NCBI GenBank assembly: GCA_028277945.1
Contig: JANQFH010000013.1
Coordinates: forward strand, 1 to 64,000
DNA from: Oligoflexia bacterium
Lineage (GTDB): Bacteria > Bdellovibrionota_G > JANQFH01
Direction of reading: 5' to 3'
Length of the DNA: 64,000 bases
Below, one piece after another: positions 48,915 to 62,449 of the stretch (position 1 is its first letter; every line of letters starts with the position of its first letter). The notes under the pieces were generated by a model, which was not told the origin of the DNA, did not search any database, and saw nothing but the letters and a program-made list of their open reading frames with translations. A program made the translations under genes and the position numbers.

Positions 48915-49982
48915 ATGCAAACCGAAAAGAGCACCAGGGTAAAAAACAAACTCCTTGAGATGGGTGTCCAACCGCCATTGACGCTTGCAGCACTGCCACA
49001 GGACGCCTCCAACCGTAGCTACTACCGCATGCATGATAGCCACAACCACAGCTGGGTGATCATGGATTTTGAACCTGGACCCCACTCTCTCGCTGAGGAA
49101 AAGACCCCAGGAGACCGAGGAAGCTTTGATGAGCTGCCATTTGTGAATATGCAGCGTTGGCTCAAGAAGCACCATGTTCGTGTACCTGAGATCTATATCA
49201 TTGCCGATGACTTTCTGATTCTGGAAGACCTAGGAGATAATACAGCACACCAATGGCTGAGCCACCAAAAGGCAACGACAGCTGAGATGATGACATTCTA
49301 TCAACATGCCCTTGATGAGCTGGTCAAAATCCATGCCTCGGCAACAAGTCTGTCCAAGGCGTGTATTGGCACCACACGCCAATTTGACCGAGAGACCTAC
49401 AACTGGGAGTTTGACCATTTTATCGACTATGGTATTGAGTGGCTTCTCGGCTCTCGTCAGGATGCACGGCATCTTCGTCACTATCTATTTTCAATAACGG
49501 AAAAGCTCTGTCAATTTTCCATCTGTCTCAACCACCGCGACTATCACAGCAAAAATTTGATCATCGACCCGCAGGGAGCAGTTCGCGTCATCGACTTTCA
49601 GGATGCGATTATGGCGCCTTGCCATTATGATCTTGCCTCGCTGTTCTTTGACTCCTACTTTGATCTTAGCGACAGTATGATTGGTGATTTGCTACATTAC
49701 TATCTAGAGAACGTGAATGCAGACTTTGTTCATGACGACTTTGAGCTCTTTAACGTAGAACTACGGATGATGGCCCTGCAGCGCAATCTCAAGGCTGCTG
49801 GGAGATTCGTCTACCTCTTCGCAAAAAAGGGCAGGGCCACCTATCTACCCTATGTCATTCCAACCATGAAAAAGGTAAAACAACACCTTAAACACCTTGG
49901 CGCCAATACAGAGTTCACAGCAAGTATTCCCTTTGCCAAGATAGAGCAAAAGATAAACACACTCATGGAGCAAGGAGCATGA
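48915..49982 (+). CDS. AmgK-like sugar kinase / aminoglycoside phosphotransferase-family protein
   Basis: The 355-residue protein has the APH-fold signatures LNHRDYHSKNLIID (catalytic Asp region) and VRVIDFQDAIMAP (metal-binding Asp), preceded by FLILEDLGDNTAH in the nucleotide-binding lobe. AmgK phosphorylates the anomeric position of MurNAc or GlcNAc in cell-wall recycling; the neighbouring nucleotidyltransferase fits that pathway. Specificity is inferred from the pairing, not read from the sequence. It overlaps the next gene by 4 bases (ATGA). Confidence 0.78.
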   Translation: MQTEKSTRVKNKLLEMGVQPPLTLAALPQDASNRSYYRMHDSHNHSWVIMDFEPGPHSLAEEKTPGDRGSFDELPFVNMQRWLKKHHVRVPEIYIIADDFLILEDLGDNTAHQWLSHQKATTAEMMTFYQHALDELVKIHASATSLSKACIGTTRQFDRETYNWEFDHFIDYGIEWLLGSRQDARHLRHYLFSITEKLCQFSICLNHRDYHSKNLIIDPQGAVRVIDFQDAIMAPCHYDLASLFFDSYFDLSDSMIGDLLHYYLENVNADFVHDDFELFNVELRMMALQRNLKAAGRFVYLFAKKGRATYLPYVIPTMKKVKQHLKHLGANTEFTASIPFAKIEQKINTLMEQGA

Positions 49983-50953
49983 GCATGCCCTTTCCACGCG
50001 AAGCGATGATCCTTGCGGCCGGCCTTGGTGAACGTCTTGCACCGGTAACCGAACTGCTGCCAAAACCACTGCTGCCCTTGGCAAACGTGCCGATCATTGA
50101 GCGTCTTATCCGTAAACTGCAACCTTTAGGGGTGGAGAAGGTTATCGTCAACCTGCACCACCTCGGAGATAAAATCCATAACCATCTCGGAGATGGCAGT
50201 CGTTTTGGCTTACAGTTGATCTACTCCTTAGAAGAAAAGCTGTTGGGAACTGCAGGTGGTATTGCCAAGATGTTACCGTCGATTGAGGGAAATCATTTTA
50301 TCTGTATGAATGGAGACTTCTTGCAGCTGGCTAATCTACAAAAAGCATGGCAAGCCTTTCAACATAGCCGTAGTGCGGCCACCATGATACTTACCTCGCA
50401 GCTAGAAGAGCAGCAAGAGAGTGCTATTGGTTTTGTTGCCTCTCCTAGCTCAGATGATTTTGGCAGAATTGTCAGCCTGCTTGACTATTCCAGCCCAACC
50501 ACTACAACCTCTATGGGTAACTTTACCGGCACCCACTTTTTCAACCGTAACTTTCTTGCTGATTTTTTCCGACAAAATCCCCACAGCTACTGCATTATCC
50601 GCGAGGGTTACCTGAACTGGCTACAACAGGCCGAACCCATCTCCGCCTACATCGAAGCCGCACCGCTTTTGGATATAGGCACCAAAGAGCGCTATCTTGC
50701 GGCCAATCGAGCCGTGCTCGAACGTGAAGCACCTGAGCAGACCGCTAGCGTAGAGGCCACCATCGTCCCACCTGTGGTCATCGGTAAAGACGTGCAGATC
50801 GATAGCAGTGCTAAGATTGGCCCTTTTGTCAGCATTGGTGATTGTTCTACCATCAAGGCAAATGCCACCGTGGCCAACAGCATCCTCCTACCTGGAGCTA
50901 GCATAGAGGCAGGGGAGAGTCTGTTGGACAAAATCGTCACAAGCCACCTATGA
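49979..50953 (+). CDS. NDP-sugar nucleotidyltransferase (MurU-like) with C-terminal hexapeptide segment
   Basis: The 324-residue protein begins with the nucleotidyltransferase motif ILAAGLGERLAPVTELLPKP. The C-terminal part (about 250-324) has VIGKDVQIDSSAKIGPFVSIG, in short segments, a left-handed beta-helix like those in GDP-mannose and UDP-sugar pyrophosphorylases. Paired with the AmgK-like kinase it would make UDP-MurNAc or a related nucleotide sugar. Classical MurU is shorter and lacks the beta-helix, so GDP-mannose-type activity remains an alternative. It converges on purN. Confidence 0.78.
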   Translation: MSMPFPREAMILAAGLGERLAPVTELLPKPLLPLANVPIIERLIRKLQPLGVEKVIVNLHHLGDKIHNHLGDGSRFGLQLIYSLEEKLLGTAGGIAKMLPSIEGNHFICMNGDFLQLANLQKAWQAFQHSRSAATMILTSQLEEQQESAIGFVASPSSDDFGRIVSLLDYSSPTTTTSMGNFTGTHFFNRNFLADFFRQNPHSYCIIREGYLNWLQQAEPISAYIEAAPLLDIGTKERYLAANRAVLEREAPEQTASVEATIVPPVVIGKDVQIDSSAKIGPFVSIGDCSTIKANATVANSILLPGASIEAGESLLDKIVTSHL

Positions 50954-51626: not shown

Positions 51627-53060
51627 TCACAGCACGCCCGTCATGCGATAGAGGATTGCCGGCATTAGCCCAAAGAGTAGTGTAAACAGAGTTGTAATCA
51701 ATAGCACCAGACCGGTCGGCCAGGGCACAACGGCTACGCTACTCTCCGATGTTGTCTCTTTCATATACATACTGATAACCGGCCGTGAATAGTAGTAGAT
51801 CGAAATGAGGCTGTTGATAATACCAGCTACGGCAAGATCAATGTGGTTAGAAGCCAATGCCGCACTGAAGAGATAGAACTTGCCCATAAAACCAGCGACA
51901 GGGGGAATGCCTGCCAAGGACACCATAAACAGCGCAAACGCCAGAGCCACCATGGGCTGAGCCTTGGCCAAACCGTGCAGCCGCTTGTAGTAAAAAGGAG
52001 CCTCTTCTTTGGCATCAAGACAGCTCAGCACAGTAAAAGCCCCCAGGCTGGCAAAGCCATAAACAACGACATAAAACAGCACCGCCCGAGCCGCAAGGTC
52101 GCCACCATCTCCTGAAGCCGATAACAACGCAATGAAAGTGTAAGCGACATGGGCAATGCTCGAGTAAGCCAGCATGCGCTTCACGCTCTTTTGTACGATG
52201 GCCGCAAGGTTGGCCACGGTCATAGATACAATAACCAGGGGTTTTAGGGTTTGCGTCCATGCAACAGAGGAGAAGAGGGCAAACTCATAAACCAATACTA
52301 ACAGCACGGCAAAGATTGCCATCTTTACAGCAGAGGCCATAAATCCGGTCACCACTGCAGGTGCACCTTCATAGACATCTGGTAGCCAGGCGTGAAAAGG
52401 AAACAGCGCTGCTTTAAATGCAAGCGATGCCAACAAAAAGACGCAGCCGATCAAATAAAAACCACCGCCATGGGGTTGCAGCCCATCAAAAGTCAAAGTA
52501 CCACTAGCACCGTAGAGATAGGCAGAGCCCATGAGAAACAGACCGGCTGAAAACGCTCCAAGGATAAAGTACTTAAATCCCGCCTCTCGTGAACGACTCT
52601 GGTGCTTACGAAAGGCGCATAGCACATAGAGAGGTAAAGAGAGCAGCTCCATACCCAGAAACAGCGTCAAAAAATGGCGACTCATCACCATCTGTATCGC
52701 TCCCAAAGCAGCAAACAGTGCCAAGGCAAAAAACTCCGTACCGTACTTGCCTGCCTGGCGCGCTAACGGTAGGGCGCTCAGCATGGAAAGCAGCAGCATG
52801 GCAAGAATAAAGCTCTGCGCCAAGGCACCACGCTGGCTCCAAGTTAAGGCTCCTTCAAAGTAGACTCGTGATAGGGAAATATCAGAGCTTAGGGTAGCCA
52901 TCAGGGCAATGCAAAGGGCTAACGAGGTTGCTACAATCGAGAAGCCAGCAGAAAAACCCGGCTTATTCGGCAGCACCAAAATGGCTAAGGCAACCAATAG
53001 CAGGATAAAGGCTGGTAACAGCGGCATCCATCCTTGCATTTGATTCAACAGTTCGATCAT
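51627..53060 (-). CDS. nuoN: NADH-quinone oxidoreductase subunit N
   Basis: This 477-residue protein of about 14 TM segments belongs to the Mrp-antiporter-like group. It has the conserved GMELLSLPLYVL, with the membrane Glu, and LAFKAALFPFHAWLPDVYEGAP. It is the membrane-arm proton-pumping subunit at the inner end of complex I, last gene of the leftward nuo operon. The start overlaps the nuoM stop by 4 bases. Confidence 0.95.
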   Translation of the reverse strand: MIELLNQMQGWMPLLPAFILLLVALAILVLPNKPGFSAGFSIVATSLALCIALMATLSSDISLSRVYFEGALTWSQRGALAQSFILAMLLLSMLSALPLARQAGKYGTEFFALALFAALGAIQMVMSRHFLTLFLGMELLSLPLYVLCAFRKHQSRSREAGFKYFILGAFSAGLFLMGSAYLYGASGTLTFDGLQPHGGGFYLIGCVFLLASLAFKAALFPFHAWLPDVYEGAPAVVTGFMASAVKMAIFAVLLVLVYEFALFSSVAWTQTLKPLVIVSMTVANLAAIVQKSVKRMLAYSSIAHVAYTFIALLSASGDGGDLAARAVLFYVVVYGFASLGAFTVLSCLDAKEEAPFYYKRLHGLAKAQPMVALAFALFMVSLAGIPPVAGFMGKFYLFSAALASNHIDLAVAGIINSLISIYYYSRPVISMYMKETTSESSVAVVPWPTGLVLLITTLFTLLFGLMPAILYRMTGVL

Positions 53061-54586
53061 CGTGTTTGCTCAGCAACGTAAACCTTCTCTTCTAACGATT
53101 GCAGAATTAGGTTAGCAGAGGGTTCAGTAAAACGCAGGAATGGCCCCGGTAAAATACCCATGAGTATCATCAGCAGCACCAATGGCACGAGTACCAGCAG
53201 CTCACCAAACTTGAGGTCATGAAAGAACCCTTCCAAACCCTGTTTAAGTGGGCCAAAGAAGATACGGCGGTACATCCACAGCAGATAGGCAGCACCGAGG
53301 ATAATACCAACGATACTGAGACTCGCCAGCAGGATACCATGCTCATTGAGTTGGCTCTTGAACAGTCCGAGAAGAATTAAAAACTCACCAATGAAGTTGT
53401 TCAATCCTGGTAAGCCGATAGAGGAGAGCGCGGTGATCATAAAGATCGTGGCAAACTTCGGTGTTATTGCCGCCAGTCCACCAAAGTCATCGATATGACG
53501 CTTGTTGCTGCGATGATAAAGCATGCCTATTAAAAAGAAAAGCGCGCCCGTAGTGATACCGTGATTCAGCATTTGATAGATACTGCCTTGGATGCCTGCC
53601 ATGGTGACAGAGAGGATACCAAGAGCAACAAAACCCATATGGCTGATACTGGAATAGGCGATGAGTTTTTTGGCGTGCTTTTGCATCAAACAGAGCAAGC
53701 TAGCATAGATAATGCCAATAATGGCTAAAGGCGACAGGAAGTTTAGCAAAGAGACAAAGACTTCTGGAAATACAGGCAACGCAAAGCGCAGCAATCCATA
53801 GCTACCAAGCTTAAGCAAGATGGCAGCAAGTACAACACTGCCCTCGGTAGGGGCTTCAACGTGAGCTACCGGCAGCCAGGAGTGTACGGGGAAGAGAGGA
53901 AACTTCACCGCAAATGCCAGGAAAAAGGCGAGAAACATCCACAGCTGCATCGTGGCAGTTAGGTGCACTTGATAGAGAGATGGTATCGACAGATCACCGC
54001 CCACCTCTCTCTGTACGAGAAAGAGTTGGATCAAAGCCAGCAACATCGGCAGCGAACCAAATACCGTAAAGAGTAGAAATTTCACTGCCGCACGAATACG
54101 CTCTTTAGCACCAAAGACACCAATAATAAGTGCCATGGGCAGTAGTAGTGCTTCCCAAAAAATGTAGAAGAAGAGCAAATCAAAGGCTAAAAAAGCCCCT
54201 AACAGGGTTGTTTGTAGTGATAGAAAGGAAAAACTAAACAGCAACGGTCGCTTTGGAGGGTGCACCACGCTGTAGATAGCCGCCAACAGAAATATGAGTT
54301 CCGTAAGCAGCAAAAAGGGGTAGTTGAGGCGATCCACACCAAGCTGTAGGGTAAGGCCAATCTCTTCTAGCCAAGATATCTCAAAGAGCAGTAGCGGCGA
54401 TCCATCTTCTGGAAACCGCCACTGTAGCAGCGCTAGCAGGAGCAGTAGCTCCGTAATGCTAACGAAGACAGACAGCCATAAGGGCGAGGCAAAACCTCGG
54501 CGTGCTAGCGGTATAAACACTAAACCGACTAGCAGCGGTAAAAAAACTACTAGAGGCAGTAAGCTATCTACAGTTAATGTCGCCAT
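53057..54586 (-). CDS. nuoM: NADH-quinone oxidoreductase subunit M
   Basis: The 509-residue membrane protein has FYIFWEALLLPMALIIG, with the key Glu, and VKFPLFPVHSWLPVAHVEAP, with the pumping Lys and His residues. It is a middle antiporter-like subunit of the membrane arm. The start is ATG 54586, with TTG 54598 the longer option; it overlaps the end of nuoL by 13 bases. Confidence 0.95.
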   Translation of the reverse strand: MATLTVDSLLPLVVFLPLLVGLVFIPLARRGFASPLWLSVFVSITELLLLLALLQWRFPEDGSPLLLFEISWLEEIGLTLQLGVDRLNYPFLLLTELIFLLAAIYSVVHPPKRPLLFSFSFLSLQTTLLGAFLAFDLLFFYIFWEALLLPMALIIGVFGAKERIRAAVKFLLFTVFGSLPMLLALIQLFLVQREVGGDLSIPSLYQVHLTATMQLWMFLAFFLAFAVKFPLFPVHSWLPVAHVEAPTEGSVVLAAILLKLGSYGLLRFALPVFPEVFVSLLNFLSPLAIIGIIYASLLCLMQKHAKKLIAYSSISHMGFVALGILSVTMAGIQGSIYQMLNHGITTGALFFLIGMLYHRSNKRHIDDFGGLAAITPKFATIFMITALSSIGLPGLNNFIGEFLILLGLFKSQLNEHGILLASLSIVGIILGAAYLLWMYRRIFFGPLKQGLEGFFHDLKFGELLVLVPLVLLMILMGILPGPFLRFTEPSANLILQSLEEKVYVAEQTR

Positions 54587-56436
54587 ACCACAAACCAAAG
54601 GACAAAGAGTACACCCAAATACATGGTCACCATATAGGCCTTAACATTTGTACGTTGAATCAAGCTGCAGACATAGGCAAACCTTCGTGTACTTACATCA
54701 ATGAGACGCAAAGCGCCTTCAACCAGCCCACCTTCAAAAAGCTGCGTGAATTTAGCTGCAGTCAAAGTCAAGCGTTTGCCGACAAAGGATGTGACAAGTG
54801 CATCGAGATAAAAGCCATCTTCACCCAAGCGCTGCAACCAGGTAAAGCGACTCGATCTCTTAGTCGGCTTCTCCCTAAAAATGATCCACCCTAAGAGGAG
54901 CGCTAAGGTTATCACTCCGATCTCTACTAAGGTTGGCAGCAGCGCGTGCCCACCCTCCTGATTAGCCACAGCCGCAATACCAAGAAACGAAAAGCCGCCC
55001 ACGAGGCTAAGAACTGCCAGCACGGCCATAGGTAGGATCATCACTAAGGGCGACTCATGCAGATGTTGCAGGTCGTCCTTAGGTATCTTCGGCGTACCGA
55101 GAAATACCTTAATAAAGAGGCGCAGGATATAGAGCGTGGTCAACATGGCGGTCAGTAGCCCAACAAGCCAATAGAAGTAATGGCCACCGACATAGCAGTG
55201 ATGCAAAATCGCACCTTTACTGTACCAACCGCTAGTAACATAAGGAAAACCAATAAGCGCTGCAGCGCCGGCAATAAAACAGAGTGTCGTTGGAATCATA
55301 TAGTTCTTGAGGCCACCAATGCGATCAATATGCTGCTCACCCTTAAGCGTATGGATCACCGAACCAGCACCAAGAAATAGCAGCGCTTTATAAAAACCAT
55401 GGCTGATAAGGTGAAACATGCCAGCACCCATGGCACCAATACCTAATGCAAGAAACATGTAACCCAGTTGGCTTACCGTTGAGTAGGCGAGGATGCGTTT
55501 TATATCTTTCTGACCAAGAGCTGCGCAGGCGGCAAAGAAGGCTGTCAACAAACCCACAGCAGCAATGATTTCCATGGTCCACGGCGCCAGCGCAAAGAGA
55601 AAACCGAGCCGCACAACCATGTAGATCCCGGCTGTTACCATCGTGGCTGCATGAATAAGGGCTGAGACCGGAGTTGGTCCGGCCATGGCGTCTGGCAACC
55701 AGACAAGCAGTGGGAATTGAGCTGACTTGCCAACAGCACCGAGAAAGAGCAAAAGCGTGGCAATGGTGATCAGAAAACTAGGTTCTGTGACCATCTGTTT
55801 GAGCGCCACACTGGAGTTGCCAACAGGGTTTACATCCAACAGACCAAACTGTGTCAGTAGTAGCAGCATACCAAGAATAAAACCGGCATCGCCAACACGA
55901 TTCACTAGAAAGGCCTTTTTGCCGGCAATGGCGTTGACGTCTTTGTCAAACCAGAAGCCAATAAGTAGATAAGAACAGAGCCCAACCCCTTCCCAGCCAA
56001 CAAAAAGCGTGACTAAATTGTTAGAGAGTACCAGTAACAGCATGAAGAAGACGAAGAGATTGAGGTAGACAAAGTAGCGCTGTTGATGCCGATCGTGTTC
56101 CATGTAGCCAACTGAGTAGATGTGGATGAGGCCACCAACTCCAGTAATCAACAACACCATCAATTGGGTTATTTCATCCCAGTAGAGCGATACAGAGATT
56201 GCCGCCCCAGGCATGTCCTTTTCAAGACCATAGGGCAGCCAATTTTCGACAAGCAAGTAGTAGAGGCTGTCCGTGCGCAACAAGCCAACAAATGCCGCGA
56301 TCACAAACGCAAACAGCACCGCCAACACAGCAATGCTTGCAACCAGACGTTGCGTTAGTCGTTTGCCGAAAAATGCATTGACAACACTACCAACTAGAGG
56401 GCTGAGGAGAATATATAAGAGCAGTGGTTCAGACAT
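54574..56436 (-). CDS. nuoL: NADH-quinone oxidoreductase subunit L
   Basis: The 620-residue antiporter-like subunit has FVGWEGVGLCSYLLIGFW and KSAQFPLLVWLPDAMAGPTP motifs and the long C-terminal region that includes the lateral helix. It sits at the distal end of the membrane arm. The start is ATG 56436, 2 bases after the nuoK stop; TTG 56442 is the longer alternative. Confidence 0.95.
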   Translation of the reverse strand: MSEPLLLYILLSPLVGSVVNAFFGKRLTQRLVASIAVLAVLFAFVIAAFVGLLRTDSLYYLLVENWLPYGLEKDMPGAAISVSLYWDEITQLMVLLITGVGGLIHIYSVGYMEHDRHQQRYFVYLNLFVFFMLLLVLSNNLVTLFVGWEGVGLCSYLLIGFWFDKDVNAIAGKKAFLVNRVGDAGFILGMLLLLTQFGLLDVNPVGNSSVALKQMVTEPSFLITIATLLLFLGAVGKSAQFPLLVWLPDAMAGPTPVSALIHAATMVTAGIYMVVRLGFLFALAPWTMEIIAAVGLLTAFFAACAALGQKDIKRILAYSTVSQLGYMFLALGIGAMGAGMFHLISHGFYKALLFLGAGSVIHTLKGEQHIDRIGGLKNYMIPTTLCFIAGAAALIGFPYVTSGWYSKGAILHHCYVGGHYFYWLVGLLTAMLTTLYILRLFIKVFLGTPKIPKDDLQHLHESPLVMILPMAVLAVLSLVGGFSFLGIAAVANQEGGHALLPTLVEIGVITLALLLGWIIFREKPTKRSSRFTWLQRLGEDGFYLDALVTSFVGKRLTLTAAKFTQLFEGGLVEGALRLIDVSTRRFAYVCSLIQRTNVKAYMVTMYLGVLFVLWFVVWRH

Positions 56437-56438
56437 AG

Positions 56439-56741
56439 TCAATCTCGCAATTCGCGCAAATCGGTGATGTCACTAAGCTGAATGTTCTTGTTGTGTTTGA
56501 ATATCTGTAGCATCAAGGCAAAGCCGATGGCTGCTTCGGCTGCGGCAATGGCAATGACAAAGAAAACCATGATCTGTCCATGCATATTGCCCCAGAGGCG
56601 TGAAAAACTCACAAGAGTGATGTTGACACCGTTGAGAACCACCTCAATACACATAAAGAGGCTGATGGCATCCTTACGAAAGAGTATGCCGAGAGCCCCG
56701 ATCAAAAAGACGACCATTCCTGTTACTAGAAAAAAGTTCAC
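56439..56741 (-). CDS. nuoK: NADH-quinone oxidoreductase subunit K
   Basis: This 100-residue, three-TM protein has the conserved FMCIEVVLNGVNITLV (two membrane Glu region) and FFVIAIAAAEAAIGFAL. GTG start overlapping the nuoJ stop (GTGA), so the genes are coupled. Confidence 0.95.
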   Translation of the reverse strand: MNFFLVTGMVVFLIGALGILFRKDAISLFMCIEVVLNGVNITLVSFSRLWGNMHGQIMVFFVIAIAAAEAAIGFALMLQIFKHNKNIQLSDITDLRELRD

Positions 56742-57250
56742 CTGCTCTTCTTCCTCGTCAAATAGACGACCCCGACAATGACAGCAACAAGCACCACTGA
56801 GATGATTTCAAATGCAAAGGCGTACTGTTGTAGCAACAAGCTGCCAAAGCCACGAATCGTGCCAAAGTCGTCAGCCACGCTCGTCGACATTATGTCGGCA
56901 GCCGGACCAAACAGCAAACTCAGTGGCAATAACCCCGCCACAAACATGAGCAGAAACAGAGCAACAAGAATGATTTTTTGGCGACGACGCCATAGAGAGC
57001 TTTCAACTCCGAGCAACATGAGGATGTAGATAAAAAGCACGAGAATACCGCCCGCGTAGATGAGTACTTGGGCTGCGGCAATAAAGGTGGCTTTTAGTAG
57101 AACAAAGAGCACCGCAGCAGTCAGTAGGCTGGTTATGAGGCATAGGGCAGCAAAAATTGGTGAACGGGCTGAGACCACCACAATACTCAAAACCACCGTT
57201 AGACTCATGGCGCTATATGTCAGAATGTCTAGAAACAGTTGTGGTGACAT
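56738..57250 (-). CDS. nuoJ: NADH-quinone oxidoreductase subunit J
   Basis: This 170-residue, five-TM protein has QVLIYAGGILVLFIYILML, the conserved segment of NuoJ. It lies between nuoH and nuoK. The gap to nuoH is 15 bases, leaving no room for nuoI, which usually sits here. Confidence 0.94.
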   Translation of the reverse strand: MSPQLFLDILTYSAMSLTVVLSIVVVSARSPIFAALCLITSLLTAAVLFVLLKATFIAAAQVLIYAGGILVLFIYILMLLGVESSLWRRRQKIILVALFLLMFVAGLLPLSLLFGPAADIMSTSVADDFGTIRGFGSLLLQQYAFAFEIISVVLVAVIVGVVYLTRKKSR

Positions 57251-57265
57251 CTCAAACCGCCTTCA

Positions 57266-58354
57266 TCATCCCTTCATTGTCCAGATCATATAGACCGCAA
57301 CGACCGCAAGATTGATTAAAGAAACTGGTAGCAGCTTTGTCCAACCAAAGCTCATCAACTGATCGTAACGAAAGCGTGGCAATGTCCAGCGTACCCAGAT
57401 GAAAACGAACAAAAAGAGGGCAATCTTTGCCACCAGCCAGAGAGAGGGAATAAACCAGAGGACTCCATAAAAATCCCAGCCAGTCAAATGTGCCAGATCG
57501 TTCCAAGTGTACCAAGGCAGAAGCTCCCAACCACCAAAGAAGAGCAGAGCGCTCAACGCCGAGCCGAGAATCATGTGAGCGTACTCCACCATATAAAAGG
57601 TGGCAAACTTCATACTGCTGTATTCAATATGAAAGCCAATAATCTCCGTCTCGCCCTCGGGAAGATCAAAAGGTAGGCGGTTTGTCTCTGCAAAGATGCA
57701 GATAAAAAATACCCAAAAGCCGATATGAGCAGGAAAGACGAACCAGATACTCTCCTGAGCAGCAACAATGTCGCCAAGCTTTGCCGAGCCTGCGAGCATA
57801 ACGATACCTATTACAGACAGGCCCAGCGGTATCTCATAGCTGATCGCCTGTGCTGAAGATCGTAAGCCACCCATTAAGGTGTACTTATTGCTCGACGCCC
57901 ACCCGCCAATGAGAATGCCGTAAACCGCCAAGCTGGCAACTGCGAGAAGGTAAATCACACCAATATCGACATCGGCAATGAGGATCGGCATCGCCATACC
58001 GTCAGCAGCCTGATAGAAACCAAAGGGAATGACAGCCATCGCCATAAATGTCGGGAGAAAGGAAAAGGCCGGGCCAAGGAGAAAGAGCAATTTCACCGCT
58101 CGTTTTGGTGCTAAATCTTCCTTAAAGATAAGCTTGATGCCATCGGCAAGCACCTGGAGTAAACCAAAAGGGCCGACTCGATTTGGCCCTAGACGTCCCT
58201 GAATCCACGCAGAGATCTTCCGTTCAAAATAGACCATACCCGGCAACGCCAAACCGAGAAGGGCTGCAAGCACTACGCCTATGCGTAACAACGCTGAGAT
58301 CACCTGTTGCAGCAGCGTCGCATCTGCTACCAGCCATGTTGACAATGTGCTCAT
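57266..58354 (-). CDS. nuoH: NADH-quinone oxidoreductase subunit H
   Basis: The 362-residue membrane protein has ERKISAWIQGRLGPNRVGP near the start and AETNRLPFDLPEGETE, the highly conserved loop near the quinone site. It overlaps nuoG by 4 bases. Confidence 0.96.
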   Translation of the reverse strand: MSTLSTWLVADATLLQQVISALLRIGVVLAALLGLALPGMVYFERKISAWIQGRLGPNRVGPFGLLQVLADGIKLIFKEDLAPKRAVKLLFLLGPAFSFLPTFMAMAVIPFGFYQAADGMAMPILIADVDIGVIYLLAVASLAVYGILIGGWASSNKYTLMGGLRSSAQAISYEIPLGLSVIGIVMLAGSAKLGDIVAAQESIWFVFPAHIGFWVFFICIFAETNRLPFDLPEGETEIIGFHIEYSSMKFATFYMVEYAHMILGSALSALLFFGGWELLPWYTWNDLAHLTGWDFYGVLWFIPSLWLVAKIALFLFVFIWVRWTLPRFRYDQLMSFGWTKLLPVSLINLAVVAVYMIWTMKG

Positions 58355-59751
58355 CGATGCTCCAGCAACGGCAGAAGTTTACCAATAAACTCTTCGCAAG
58401 TGTGTGCCTGCACGGGTGCCTCTAAAAAGGTGTCAAACGACTGCACCACTCCGGCAAAGTTGGTATAGCTGCCATGGATTTCGCCGTGGGCGACACCCGG
58501 CGCCACGTAAAGGGTATTAGCAATAAAAGGCTCCATGTAAGCTCCAAGATAGATAAGCTCATCTATATTTAAGTCTTTTGAAGGAGTTACACCAAAACTC
58601 AAAGCTAATTTAAAAGACTGTTTTAGTTTATTAGGTTCATGAAAACGGCCTTTGAAAATATCCCGTAAGCCTCTTGCATTAGGCCCAAAATCCCAACGCC
58701 GCAGGAGATGATCGCCGCCCTCTTTAAATGGCGGTCCACTGATCGTTGCCGCCGACAGCGAGCCATCGACAAAATCGGCAATGGCTTGAATGTCCTCGTT
58801 GCAGAGCCAATTGGAAACCAGCACAAGGATATCCGTAGCAGCCTCTTGCTGCAGACGCCGTGCCACACTGACAAAAAAGCTCGCCGCATCTATTGGCTCT
58901 CCTCGGTGCCAGAACCCTTCGATACGTCTCCTATTAGTATGATATTTGCTAAAGTAGCTACGACCCTCATCACACATCCAATAGCTGTTGACCTCTTTAT
59001 TAAAGCGAGGCACAACCCTCTGTACCACGTTGTCTTTAATATCGATCTTTGTATTACAACCACGTGGGCAGAGAGGGCAGATGGATTCACGTTTCTCAAG
59101 ATTCCAAACTCTCTCGGCAAAGCGAAAGTTTGTTGGTGACAGAGCTCCCACTGGACAAATATCGGCAGTATTGAGCTGGTAGTCACTCTCGAGGTCTTTC
59201 CCAGGAGCCGTGGCGATCTCTGCACTGTTGCCACGTTGGTGTACATAGAGCTCTTCTTTACCATCGACATCGCGTAGAAACTGCACACAACGCAAACAGA
59301 CGATACAGCGGTCTTTCTCCAACATGAGTTTGTCGCTTAACCGTACTGTCGCCGGAGTACGCTTTTTCTCAACGAAGTCTGTATGCGATCTGCCGTATTT
59401 AAAGGCGTAGTTTTGCAAGTCACACTCTCCAGCCTTATCACAAACGGGACAGTCCAATGGATGGTTGGCCAGTAAAAATTCGAGCGTCCATTTACGCGCC
59501 TCTACGGCAAGCTCACTCTTTGTTCGCACTACCATACCATCACGAACTGGCGTGTTACAGGCGATCTGCGGATGTGGCATACCTTCAACTTCGACAAAAC
59601 AGATGCGGCAGTTGCCAGCCACCGCCAGAGCAGGATGGTAGCAGTAATGAGGGATTTCAATACCGTGCTCCTTGGCAAGATCAATCAAGTTTACACCGGG
59701 TGCGGTCTTGATCTCCTTATCGTCAATCTTTACGCTAATCTCTGGGTTCAT
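58351..59751 (-). CDS. nuoG: NADH-quinone oxidoreductase subunit G, short form
   Basis: The 466-residue protein has the N-terminal 2Fe-2S ferredoxin domain (CYHPALAVAGNCRIC). It also has the HPLDCPVCDKAGECDLQ segment with the His-ligated cluster, a 4Fe-4S domain (CIVCLRCVQF) and the CPLCPRGC...CDEGRS cluster that begins the molybdopterin-type domain. The rest of that domain is very short, ending after about 180 residues. Typical NuoG has 680-900 residues, so most of the redox-inert C-terminal part is missing. The stop overlaps the nuoH start, so this is not a local frameshift scar. Confidence 0.92.
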   Translation of the reverse strand: MNPEISVKIDDKEIKTAPGVNLIDLAKEHGIEIPHYCYHPALAVAGNCRICFVEVEGMPHPQIACNTPVRDGMVVRTKSELAVEARKWTLEFLLANHPLDCPVCDKAGECDLQNYAFKYGRSHTDFVEKKRTPATVRLSDKLMLEKDRCIVCLRCVQFLRDVDGKEELYVHQRGNSAEIATAPGKDLESDYQLNTADICPVGALSPTNFRFAERVWNLEKRESICPLCPRGCNTKIDIKDNVVQRVVPRFNKEVNSYWMCDEGRSYFSKYHTNRRRIEGFWHRGEPIDAASFFVSVARRLQQEAATDILVLVSNWLCNEDIQAIADFVDGSLSAATISGPPFKEGGDHLLRRWDFGPNARGLRDIFKGRFHEPNKLKQSFKLALSFGVTPSKDLNIDELIYLGAYMEPFIANTLYVAPGVAHGEIHGSYTNFAGVVQSFDTFLEAPVQAHTCEEFIGKLLPLLEHR

Positions 59752-60995
59752 TGGATACCTTTTTCAAATTCATGCCGAAATTTGCTGACAAAACTGCGCA
59801 CGGGCAACGCTGCGGCATCACCAAGAGCACAGATGGTACGACGCTCGATCTGATCACACATGGTAATGAGCAAATCGATATCTTCACGACGACCACGACC
59901 CTTGAGCAGTCGTCGTAAAATGTCTTGCATCCACTTTACGCCTTCACGACAAGGAGTGCACTGGCCACACGATTCATGCGCATAGAAACGGGTGATGACA
60001 TAAAGCGCTTCTACCATCGACACGGTTTCGTCCATAATAATGACTGCCGCCGTACCAAACATCGAACCTGCTGCAGCAAGGCTATCGAAATCCATGGAAA
60101 TATCACACTCAGCAGCCGTTAACACAGGACAGGAGGAGCCACCGGGAATCACCGCTTTCAACGCTTTATCATTGGGAATGCCGCCACCATGTTCGAAGAT
60201 GAGTTCCTTGAGATTGATACCCATGGGCAATTCATAGACACCAGGACGTTTGACTCTGCCGCTCAGGCAGTAGAGTTTTGGGCCTTTGGCCTTATCGTTG
60301 CCAATAGAACGAAACCACTTGACTCCACGGTCCAAAATAAACGGTACCAAACAGAGGGTCTCAACGTTATTGACGTTTGTTGGCGAGCGCCACAGGCCGT
60401 GGGTGGCAGGGAAGGGTGGTTTTAGTCGCGGGTAACCACGCTTACCCTCTAACGACTCCAACAGCGCGGTTTCTTCGCCACAGATATAGGCACCTGCACC
60501 GCGATGTAAGTAGAGCTCAAAACTAAACTTCGATCCAAGAATATTATTGCCAAGAAAACCCTTTTCATAGGCTTGGGCTATGGCCTTTTCTATAATTGGT
60601 GTGATCTCAGTAAACTCGCCACGTAAGTAGATGAAACCAATGTTCATCGACATGGCAAAGCCGCTAATAACCATAGACTCAATAATCAGATGGGGATCCC
60701 AAGTCAAAAGAGCTCGATCTTTGAAGGTTCCAGGTTCTGACTCATCCGCATTACAGACAAGATAACGATTACCAGGGCGTTCTTCCACCGAGGGCACAAA
60801 GCTCCATTTCATGCCGGTTGGAAAACCAGCGCCACCAAGGCCTCTTAGACCGGCATCTTTTACTGTCTGGATAATTTCCTCAGGTGCGCGCTGCTTGAGT
60901 GTGCTTTTCAACACACGGTAACCGCCATCGGCCATGTAGGTATCTACATCGCGGTACTGAGAATCATTGAAGTGGCGGCTAAGAACAGGCTCCAT
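59748..60995 (-). CDS. nuoF: NADH-quinone oxidoreductase subunit F
   Basis: The 415-residue protein has the NADH site GLRGLGGAGFPTGMKW, the FMN-binding GAGAYICGEETALLESLEG and the 4Fe-4S motif ESCGQCTPCREG. It takes electrons from NADH. The start is ATG 60995, overlapping the nuoE stop by one base. It is part of the tight nuo operon. Confidence 0.96.
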   Translation of the reverse strand: MEPVLSRHFNDSQYRDVDTYMADGGYRVLKSTLKQRAPEEIIQTVKDAGLRGLGGAGFPTGMKWSFVPSVEERPGNRYLVCNADESEPGTFKDRALLTWDPHLIIESMVISGFAMSMNIGFIYLRGEFTEITPIIEKAIAQAYEKGFLGNNILGSKFSFELYLHRGAGAYICGEETALLESLEGKRGYPRLKPPFPATHGLWRSPTNVNNVETLCLVPFILDRGVKWFRSIGNDKAKGPKLYCLSGRVKRPGVYELPMGINLKELIFEHGGGIPNDKALKAVIPGGSSCPVLTAAECDISMDFDSLAAAGSMFGTAAVIIMDETVSMVEALYVITRFYAHESCGQCTPCREGVKWMQDILRRLLKGRGRREDIDLLITMCDQIERRTICALGDAAALPVRSFVSKFRHEFEKGIQ

Positions 60996-61492
60996 CAAGA
61001 CTTCTCCAACAGTCGGGTTAGATCCTCTGGAAGGTTGTCAGCATCAACCTTCTCAAACAGCTTCTCGTCGACCATCATCACTGGGGCTTTATCACACGCG
61101 GCTAGACACTCGGCCTCAAGCAGCAAGAAACGGCCATCTGTAGAACTCTGCCCTGGCTCAGTCTGCAACCGTTCTATAAGATTTTTCTTCAGACGCTCAC
61201 TACCACAGAGGTAGCAGGAAAGGTTCCTGCAGATGATCACTTCATGCTTAGCCCTCTTTTTAAAGCGAAACATGTCATAGAAGTTAGCTGTGCCATAGAC
61301 ATGGCTAGGTGTGGTATCAAGAAGTTCGGCCACGAGGTCCACGACTTCCGGGCTGATATGGTCAAACTCTTCTTGAGCAATATGCAGCACAGGAATCAGC
61401 GCTGCAACCTTTTCAGGATAGTGCGAAATGAGCTCCTCTACCTGCTGCATAGCTTTGCGGCTGAACCGTAGTTTATTCTTCTGCGTTCCCAT
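60995..61492 (-). CDS. nuoE: NADH-quinone oxidoreductase subunit E
   Basis: This 165-residue thioredoxin-like protein holds a 2Fe-2S cluster, with ligands in ICRNLSCYLCG and AECLAACDKAP. The rest includes HVYGTANFYDMF, typical of NuoE. It forms the peripheral NADH-oxidising tip with NuoF. Its gene overlaps nuoC by 20 bases. Confidence 0.95.
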   Translation of the reverse strand: MGTQKNKLRFSRKAMQQVEELISHYPEKVAALIPVLHIAQEEFDHISPEVVDLVAELLDTTPSHVYGTANFYDMFRFKKRAKHEVIICRNLSCYLCGSERLKKNLIERLQTEPGQSSTDGRFLLLEAECLAACDKAPVMMVDEKLFEKVDADNLPEDLTRLLEKS

Positions 61493-62021
61493 CTCGACTC
61501 TGTTGCTTTCTCATTTTCTTGAGTGAAGATTTGCGTGGCCACTCAGGTGGGCCGTGCAACGGAAAGTCTTTGCGCAGTGGATAGCCTTCCATCGTTTCTG
61601 TCATCAGAATACGTTGCAGCGAAGGATGGCCGCGAAACTGGATACCAAACATGTCATAGGTCTCACGCTCTAACCACAACGCCCCTTGCCATATCGATGA
61701 GATACTGGGTAATTCTGGCAGGTTACCTGAGGTGTCCTCTCCTGGTAGCGGCACCTTGATACGAAGTTTGCTACCATGTCTATCAGAGCCTAGGTGGTAT
61801 ACGACCTCGAAACGGTGTGGTTGCGACCGATCATGGTCGACCGCAGTAATGTCAATAAGATGCTGAAAGGCTAGCTCCTCATCATCGCGCACGCAGTGAA
61901 TCACGTCCATCAACGCATCAGGGGGTGTGGTAACACTAACCTCGTCACGAAAAAGATCCGTAGCAACCAACTGATTCCCACATAGCTGCGTAATCTTATT
62001 AAGCAATGCCTTTGCCAACAT
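61473..62021 (-). CDS. nuoC: NADH-quinone oxidoreductase subunit C
   Basis: The 182-residue protein has WLERETYDMFGIQFRGHP and LRKDFPLHG, the hallmark of the 30-kDa subunit. It is not fused to NuoD. The start is ATG 62021. The 53-base gap to nuoA, where nuoB is expected, has no coding content for that subunit. No good ribosome binding site was seen. Confidence 0.94.
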   Translation of the reverse strand: MLAKALLNKITQLCGNQLVATDLFRDEVSVTTPPDALMDVIHCVRDDEELAFQHLIDITAVDHDRSQPHRFEVVYHLGSDRHGSKLRIKVPLPGEDTSGNLPELPSISSIWQGALWLERETYDMFGIQFRGHPSLQRILMTETMEGYPLRKDFPLHGPPEWPRKSSLKKMRKQQSRDGNAEE

Positions 62022-62074
62022 GCTAGTGTAGTGCCCTACAAATGTTTTGTAAATTCGTTCTGTGGAGCAACGTA

Positions 62075-62449
62075 CTAGTCCCAATCAAAGGCTTGACGCC
62101 GATAACAGTAGACCAGGCCAAAAAGAAGAACCAAGAGGAAGATACCAATGAAGACAATCGCTGAAGCGCTGTTTCCTGAGGCTATTTCATGGCGAAAACG
62201 TACAGCCCAAGGAATAAAAAAAGCGGCTTCAACGTCAAAGATGATGAAGATGAGTGCCACCGTAGCGTATTTGATTGGCACTTGCTCGCCTTGACCTGTT
62301 GGTGCTATCACCGTGTCGACACCACACTCATAGGTGGTTGCCTTTTCTGCGAGTGGCCGCTGCGGGCCAAAAAAACGCGATAACAACAGAAGCGTTGCCG
62401 CCACCCCGACCAACACCAGAAACAGTAATAATATCGGGACGTAACTCAT
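62075..62449 (-). CDS. nuoA: NADH-quinone oxidoreductase subunit A
   Basis: This 124-residue, three-TM protein has TYECGVD, with the conserved Cys loop, and IFIIFDVEAAFFIPWAV. It is the first gene of the leftward operon, with a sigma-70-like promoter upstream. Confidence 0.96.
   Translation of the reverse strand: MSYVPILLLFLVLVGVAATLLLLSRFFGPQRPLAEKATTYECGVDTVIAPTGQGEQVPIKYATVALIFIIFDVEAAFFIPWAVRFRHEIASGNSASAIVFIGIFLLVLLFGLVYCYRRQAFDWD

Follow-up and report, generated by a model that had tools for sequence, protein, structure and literature searches.

In the Oligoflexia bacterium studied here (G000; GCA_028277945.1), one canonical, proton-pumping NADH:quinone oxidoreductase (complex I) is very probably encoded at two separate loci, and the 14-subunit enzyme is, by its predicted genes, encoded as 13 polypeptides. 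One locus lies in the window, the 64,000-nucleotide stretch of contig C63 that was analyzed; the other, on contig C10, carries a single gene for a fused NuoB-NuoD chain, hereafter nuoBD, together with nuoI. All 14 core subunits (A to N) are encoded, 11 in the window and B, D and I on C10. The FMN and iron-sulfur ligands, including those of cluster N2, and the quinone-site histidine and tyrosine are present as judged from motifs and alignment to Thermus Nqo4 and Nqo6. The assembly is a fragmented draft of 2.86 Mb in 92 contigs, with 95.6% completeness and 0.08% contamination, and a further nuo gene could conceivably lie in one of its gaps.

The window locus is an uninterrupted minus-strand run of 11 genes, nuoA-C-E-F-G-H-J-K-L-M-N, reading from position 62449 down to 51627. 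Profile searches match their products to the NuoA, C, E, F, G, H, J, K, L, M and N families; NuoA, NuoE, NuoG and NuoJ score under the curated cut-offs, with no better family for any of them. The first gene, nuoA (62075..62449; 124 aa; NF005922, E 6e-23), is separated by 53 bases from nuoC (61473..62021), given a NuoC start at the ATG at 62021; the 182-aa NuoC is a separate protein, unfused to D, and exceeds the TIGR01961 cut-off. It overlaps by 20 bases with nuoE (60995..61492; 165 aa), which has the N1a ligand motif. Then follow nuoF (59748..60998; 416 aa), with FMN/NADH and N3 motifs and a TIGR01959 score above cut-off, and nuoG (58351..59751), encoding a short form of 466 aa that matches positions 1-328 of the 606 in TIGR01973, below cut-off. 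Directly next to nuoH (57266..58354; 362 aa) is nuoJ (56738..57250; 170 aa), at a gap of only 15 bases (57251-57265), and the nuoI slot between them is empty. The run is completed by nuoK (56439..56741; 100 aa), nuoL (54574..56442; 622 aa; TIGR01974 above cut-off), nuoM (53057..54598; 513 aa by the longest frame; TIGR01972 above cut-off), which overlaps the end of nuoL, and nuoN (51627..53060; 477 aa). Most of the other junctions are 4-base stop/start overlaps, and there is no space in the operon for nuoB, nuoD or nuoI. An assembly-wide profile search gave no match to NuoB, NuoD or NuoI in the window, with full matches on contig C10 only. Since the operon is interior to a contig of 114,760 bases, the empty slots are not contig-edge effects. 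The first-pass annotation had described this order, the coordinates of the run and the empty B, D and I slots at the A-C, C-E and H-J junctions, and our analysis agrees with it on each. Downstream of nuoN, a sugar-kinase-like and nucleotidyltransferase gene pair resembling amgK-murU (window 48915-50953) adjoins a purN-like gene, all as judged by eye from the translations.

Whole-genome search of the draft assembly returned one match each for NuoB (E 9e-67) and NuoD (E 5e-170), and for NuoI one full-score match (E 2e-37) plus one weak, ferredoxin-like match. The three main matches fall within 2.2 kb in the interior of C10 (514,312 bases). On the minus strand of this contig, folE (GTP cyclohydrolase I; L005:10329-9772) ends 24 bases upstream of nuoBD (L005:9747-8032), one open frame of 571 codons from a GTG start (578 codons from stop to stop), and the end of nuoBD overlaps by 4 bases (ATGA) with nuoI (L005:8035-7469). 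Given this spacing, folE, nuoBD and nuoI are likely a transcription unit. The 571-aa product has a NuoB domain at residues 12-153 and a NuoD domain at 189-571, and a profile search of the frame found no NuoC domain. The folE neighbor is not conserved in two genomes of the same phylum with a corresponding fusion (G002 and G004), in both of which nuoBD is preceded by a metallo-beta-lactamase-like gene (so named from its translation by eye); we therefore treat the adjacency of folE and nuoBD as incidental. Genome search found a single NuoH and a single NuoF, so there is no second complex I, and hence no second full nuo operon, in this genome. The first-pass annotation had offered, as its first option, that B, D and I are encoded elsewhere and had proposed a genome search, which located each of them once, sharing one locus on a contig other than that of the window operon. 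The fusion of B to D and the recurrence of the split in other genomes lay beyond what that annotation could see.

Aligned to Thermus thermophilus Nqo6, nuoBD has the N2 ligands C38, C39, C104 and C133; aligned to Nqo4, it has the quinone-site residues H200 (Nqo4 H38) and Y249 (Nqo4 Y87), and its D301 falls at Nqo4 D139. We take H38, Y87 and D139 to be the reference sites in Nqo4. Both CxxCxxCxxxCP motifs are present in NuoI. NuoG retains all of the N1b, N4, N5 and N7 ligand motifs, while its C-terminal molybdopterin-type domain is much reduced and mostly missing, and its 466 aa compare with a median of 787 in a set of 71 NuoG frames, some truncated at the end of a locus. The clean overlaps with neighboring genes and a recognisable C-terminal sequence make it look like a compact form, not a broken gene, and with this short NuoG scoring under the curated cut-off the NADH module is atypical. 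AlphaFold2 modeling of nuoBD from an 84-row alignment predicted two well-folded domains (mean pLDDT 86.8, pTM 0.87), and the D domain of the model superposes on 49-kDa/NuoD chains with TM-scores, normalised by target length, of 0.94-0.96 where the chains are best trimmed. The linker is of low confidence (blocks of 57-73 over residues about 151-200), and its detail should not be over-read, some NuoD N-terminal residues being misplaced in the alignment used.

Products of the two loci would assemble into one enzyme. The window operon would supply the membrane arm (A, H, J, K, L, M and N), the NADH module (E, F and G) and NuoC, and the folE-nuoBD-nuoI locus the core of the quinone module, namely the fused NuoB-NuoD chain and NuoI with clusters N6a/N6b. 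Electrons would then pass from NADH to FMN, through the F, E and G clusters to I, on to the B domain and finally, as is usual for complex I, to quinone where B and D meet. The fusion would place cluster N2 together with the quinone pocket in one polypeptide and would fix the B:D stoichiometry. Two other enzyme types were considered: an alternative electron-input module was rejected because NuoE, NuoF and NuoG are all present, and with those three genes in the window the locus does not correspond to an 11-subunit complex I-like enzyme without the NADH module.

Five genomes, each of its own family, were compared in the phylum of the studied bacterium. Fusions of B and D were found in G002 (583 aa) and G004 (585 aa), which are 64% and 62% identical to nuoBD of G000, respectively, and collinear with it through the linker; in both, the order is nuoBD-nuoG-nuoI. 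The other locus of G002 reads nuoA-C-E-F-H-J-K-L-M with no G between F and H, and its contig ends in nuoM. Only an 11-subunit-type nuo set was found in G003, and G001 had no match. Among the 385 genomes searched, 301 of which had a B or D match, four (G000, G002, G004 and G154) have B and D in one uninterrupted frame, and these are also the only cases among the loci read in detail; the counts of fusions and split loci are lower bounds, as only the best-scoring loci were read in this way. The nuoBD of G154, a member of another phylum, encodes 573 aa and is solitary. Elsewhere in that genome, a locus (L183:6338-9689) has nuoC-E-F-H only, with no J to N after it, which suggests that its complex I genes are widely scattered.

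In G036, G051, G035 and G230, B and D are separate genes with no intervening C, in loci of the type B-D-I or B-D-I-G. The window operon is matched in gene set and order by that of G051, again from another phylum, which has the A-C-E-F-G-H-J-K-L-M-N run plus a separate, unfused B-D-I locus. In G035 and G230 the order is the non-canonical B-D-I-G, and the other locus of G035 reads A-C-E-F-H-J at a contig end. G036 also has an ordinary A-B-C-D-E-F locus, and its B-D-I locus may be extra. Candidate fusions were rejected in G230, where a stop lies between separate B and D genes, and in G024, G025 and G047, considered as BCD fusions, where B, C and D are in separate frames. A scan of named genomes found only ordinary A-B-C-D operons and no further fusions among the best 80 matches.

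The comparison also brought up other rearrangements of nuo genes. G004 (L040:7686-11050) and G003 (L042:7026-10269) each have a second nuoB, divergent (about 52% identity to the B domain) and part of a suf operon, with an Rrf2-family regulator on one side and sufB-sufC on the other. In G002 and G003, the nuo loci of 11-subunit type (L041 and L043) have an empty nuoB slot, and the suf-operon nuoB may belong to such loci. In G154, a detached nuoB adjoins an A-type Fe-S carrier gene of the Pfam family Fe-S_biosyn (L195:954-1968); taken with the suf cases, this gives a hint of an association between Fe-S assembly genes and isolated copies of nuoB. Complex I genes are divided differently again in Acidobacteria metagenome-assembled genomes (L103 and L114), where an A-B-C-D-E-F-H-J-K-L-M-N run has empty nuoG and nuoI slots.

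How the two loci arose is less certain than what they encode. In a NuoD tree of 138 rows, G000, G002 and G004 form a clade (support 99), and in the NuoH tree G000 and G002 are sisters (99), so that both loci look vertically inherited within the phylum. G154, G036 and G051 are placed near the phylum clade in the NuoD tree, close to Bacteroidota- and Ignavibacteriota-type sequences, and G035 and G230 are a separate pair (99). With the NuoD of split loci in two places in the tree, the layout either arose at least twice or was transferred. NuoF trees were poorly resolved. It is close to an even chance that the same enzyme came by its two loci through stepwise relocation or horizontal transfer of B, D and I, or of a BD-I cassette, a history that fits the occurrence of split B-D-I loci in several phyla, with the G035/G230 pair apart from the others; an approximately unbiased test of NuoG placing G000, G002 and G004 in one clade (p-AU 0.27), by which that grouping is neither favored nor rejected, gives no decision on duplication. 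Relocation or transfer accounts less readily for gene order. The two loci of G000 are exact complements of the canonical order, and those of G002 (B-D-G-I and A-C-E-F-H-J-K-L-M), read together, keep it as well, as complementary loss predicts. The position of nuoG also differs: G000 and G051 have it in the main operon, G002, G004 and G035 at the BD locus. These mirror-image loci with differing nuoG placement fit duplication of a whole operon with complementary loss, which we regard as a possible origin at somewhat below even probability: an ancestral nuoA-N operon would have been duplicated, complementary genes would have been lost from each copy, and B would have been joined to D when nuoC was deleted from between them. 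A broader reading, which we put forward tentatively, is that in phyla with little sampling complex I has repeatedly been divided at one boundary, with a membrane/NADH operon on one side and a 'quinone core' operon, B-D-(G)-I, on the other, by duplication of the whole operon and complementary loss; in the phylum of G000, loss of nuoC from the second copy would have given rise to a class of BD fusion not previously described.

Whatever their origin, the fusion could be nominal if nuoBD were translated mainly as two proteins, with an internal start at the ATG of codon 189. This in-frame ATG does stand at the start of the NuoD domain; nevertheless, it is not preceded by a clear Shine-Dalgarno sequence, and both reading frame and linker have been conserved in three families (62-64% identity) as well as in G154, making two separate products improbable. 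It is more doubtful still that the window operon belongs to a different enzyme, in which the NADH module and membrane arm are joined by another connector replacing B, D and I, as the first-pass annotation had offered as its second option. The genes for these subunits are indeed missing from the operon itself; however, complementary NuoB, NuoD and NuoI, canonical and complete in all checked ligands, are encoded exactly once in the genome with no other complex I to serve, so no alternative connector is needed. The operon has also kept NuoC, NuoG, NuoH and NuoJ, several of which contact the quinone module in known structures. Finally, although the genome is a draft of many contigs, an assembly or binning artefact that broke up a normal A-N operon, with the BD frame and short gaps as errors, is barely conceivable, as the window operon runs through overlapping genes without a gap, both loci lie inside long contigs, and the fusion recurs in the independent genomes of two other families and the unfused split in another phylum.

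A single complex I from two loci, with B and D fused, can be compared with several known arrangements. Thermus thermophilus complex I (Nqo1-14) is the best solved match and has the same N2 and quinone-site ligands; the D domain of nuoBD aligns to Nqo4 residues 8-409 and the B domain to Nqo6 residues 13-161, yet these are separate chains in Thermus and one chain here. No PDB chain covers both domains among the matches listed. As in nuoBD, the E. coli-type NuoCD (NF008728) fuses two quinone-module subunits at the N-terminus of NuoD, but the partner is C instead of B; nuoBD scores 439 bits against this family's cut-off of 840, over the D part only, and with NuoC as a separate reading frame is not a member. 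NuoBCD (NF009808) likewise has an N-terminal B domain and a C-terminal D domain in one complex I chain. In contrast, nuoBD has no C domain, NuoC being encoded by a separate gene in the other operon, and at 691 bits against a cut-off of 1156 it falls outside this family too. A 2025 survey reported fused BCD in four classes of Thermodesulfobacteriota, listed NuoD as fused only 'with subunit(s) C or with both B and C' in 1,374 species, and noted that split and single clusters occur side by side in most complex I clades (PMC12361115). The split into B-D-I or B-D-I-G is shared by G051, G035, G036 and G230, in unfused form. Our literature search, which took in few subscription papers, found no report of NuoBD or of the partition into A-C-E-F-(G)-H-J-K-L-M-N and B-D-(G)-I. 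Relative to the accessible literature, in which CD and BCD are the only fusions named, a chain joining B to D without C and the repeated occurrence of the two-locus partition are new.

A genome of this kind may seem to lack essential complex I subunits while encoding all of them, and the enzyme would be called partial by annotation pipelines that expect all 14 genes in a single cluster or recognise no fusions other than CD and BCD. The mirror-image loci provide a case in which duplication of an operon with complementary loss can be tested. As a natural NuoB-NuoD fusion that unites N2 and the quinone pocket in a single chain, NuoBD would be a useful constraint on the assembly order of complex I, and it might serve as a construct for expressing the quinone-reducing core.
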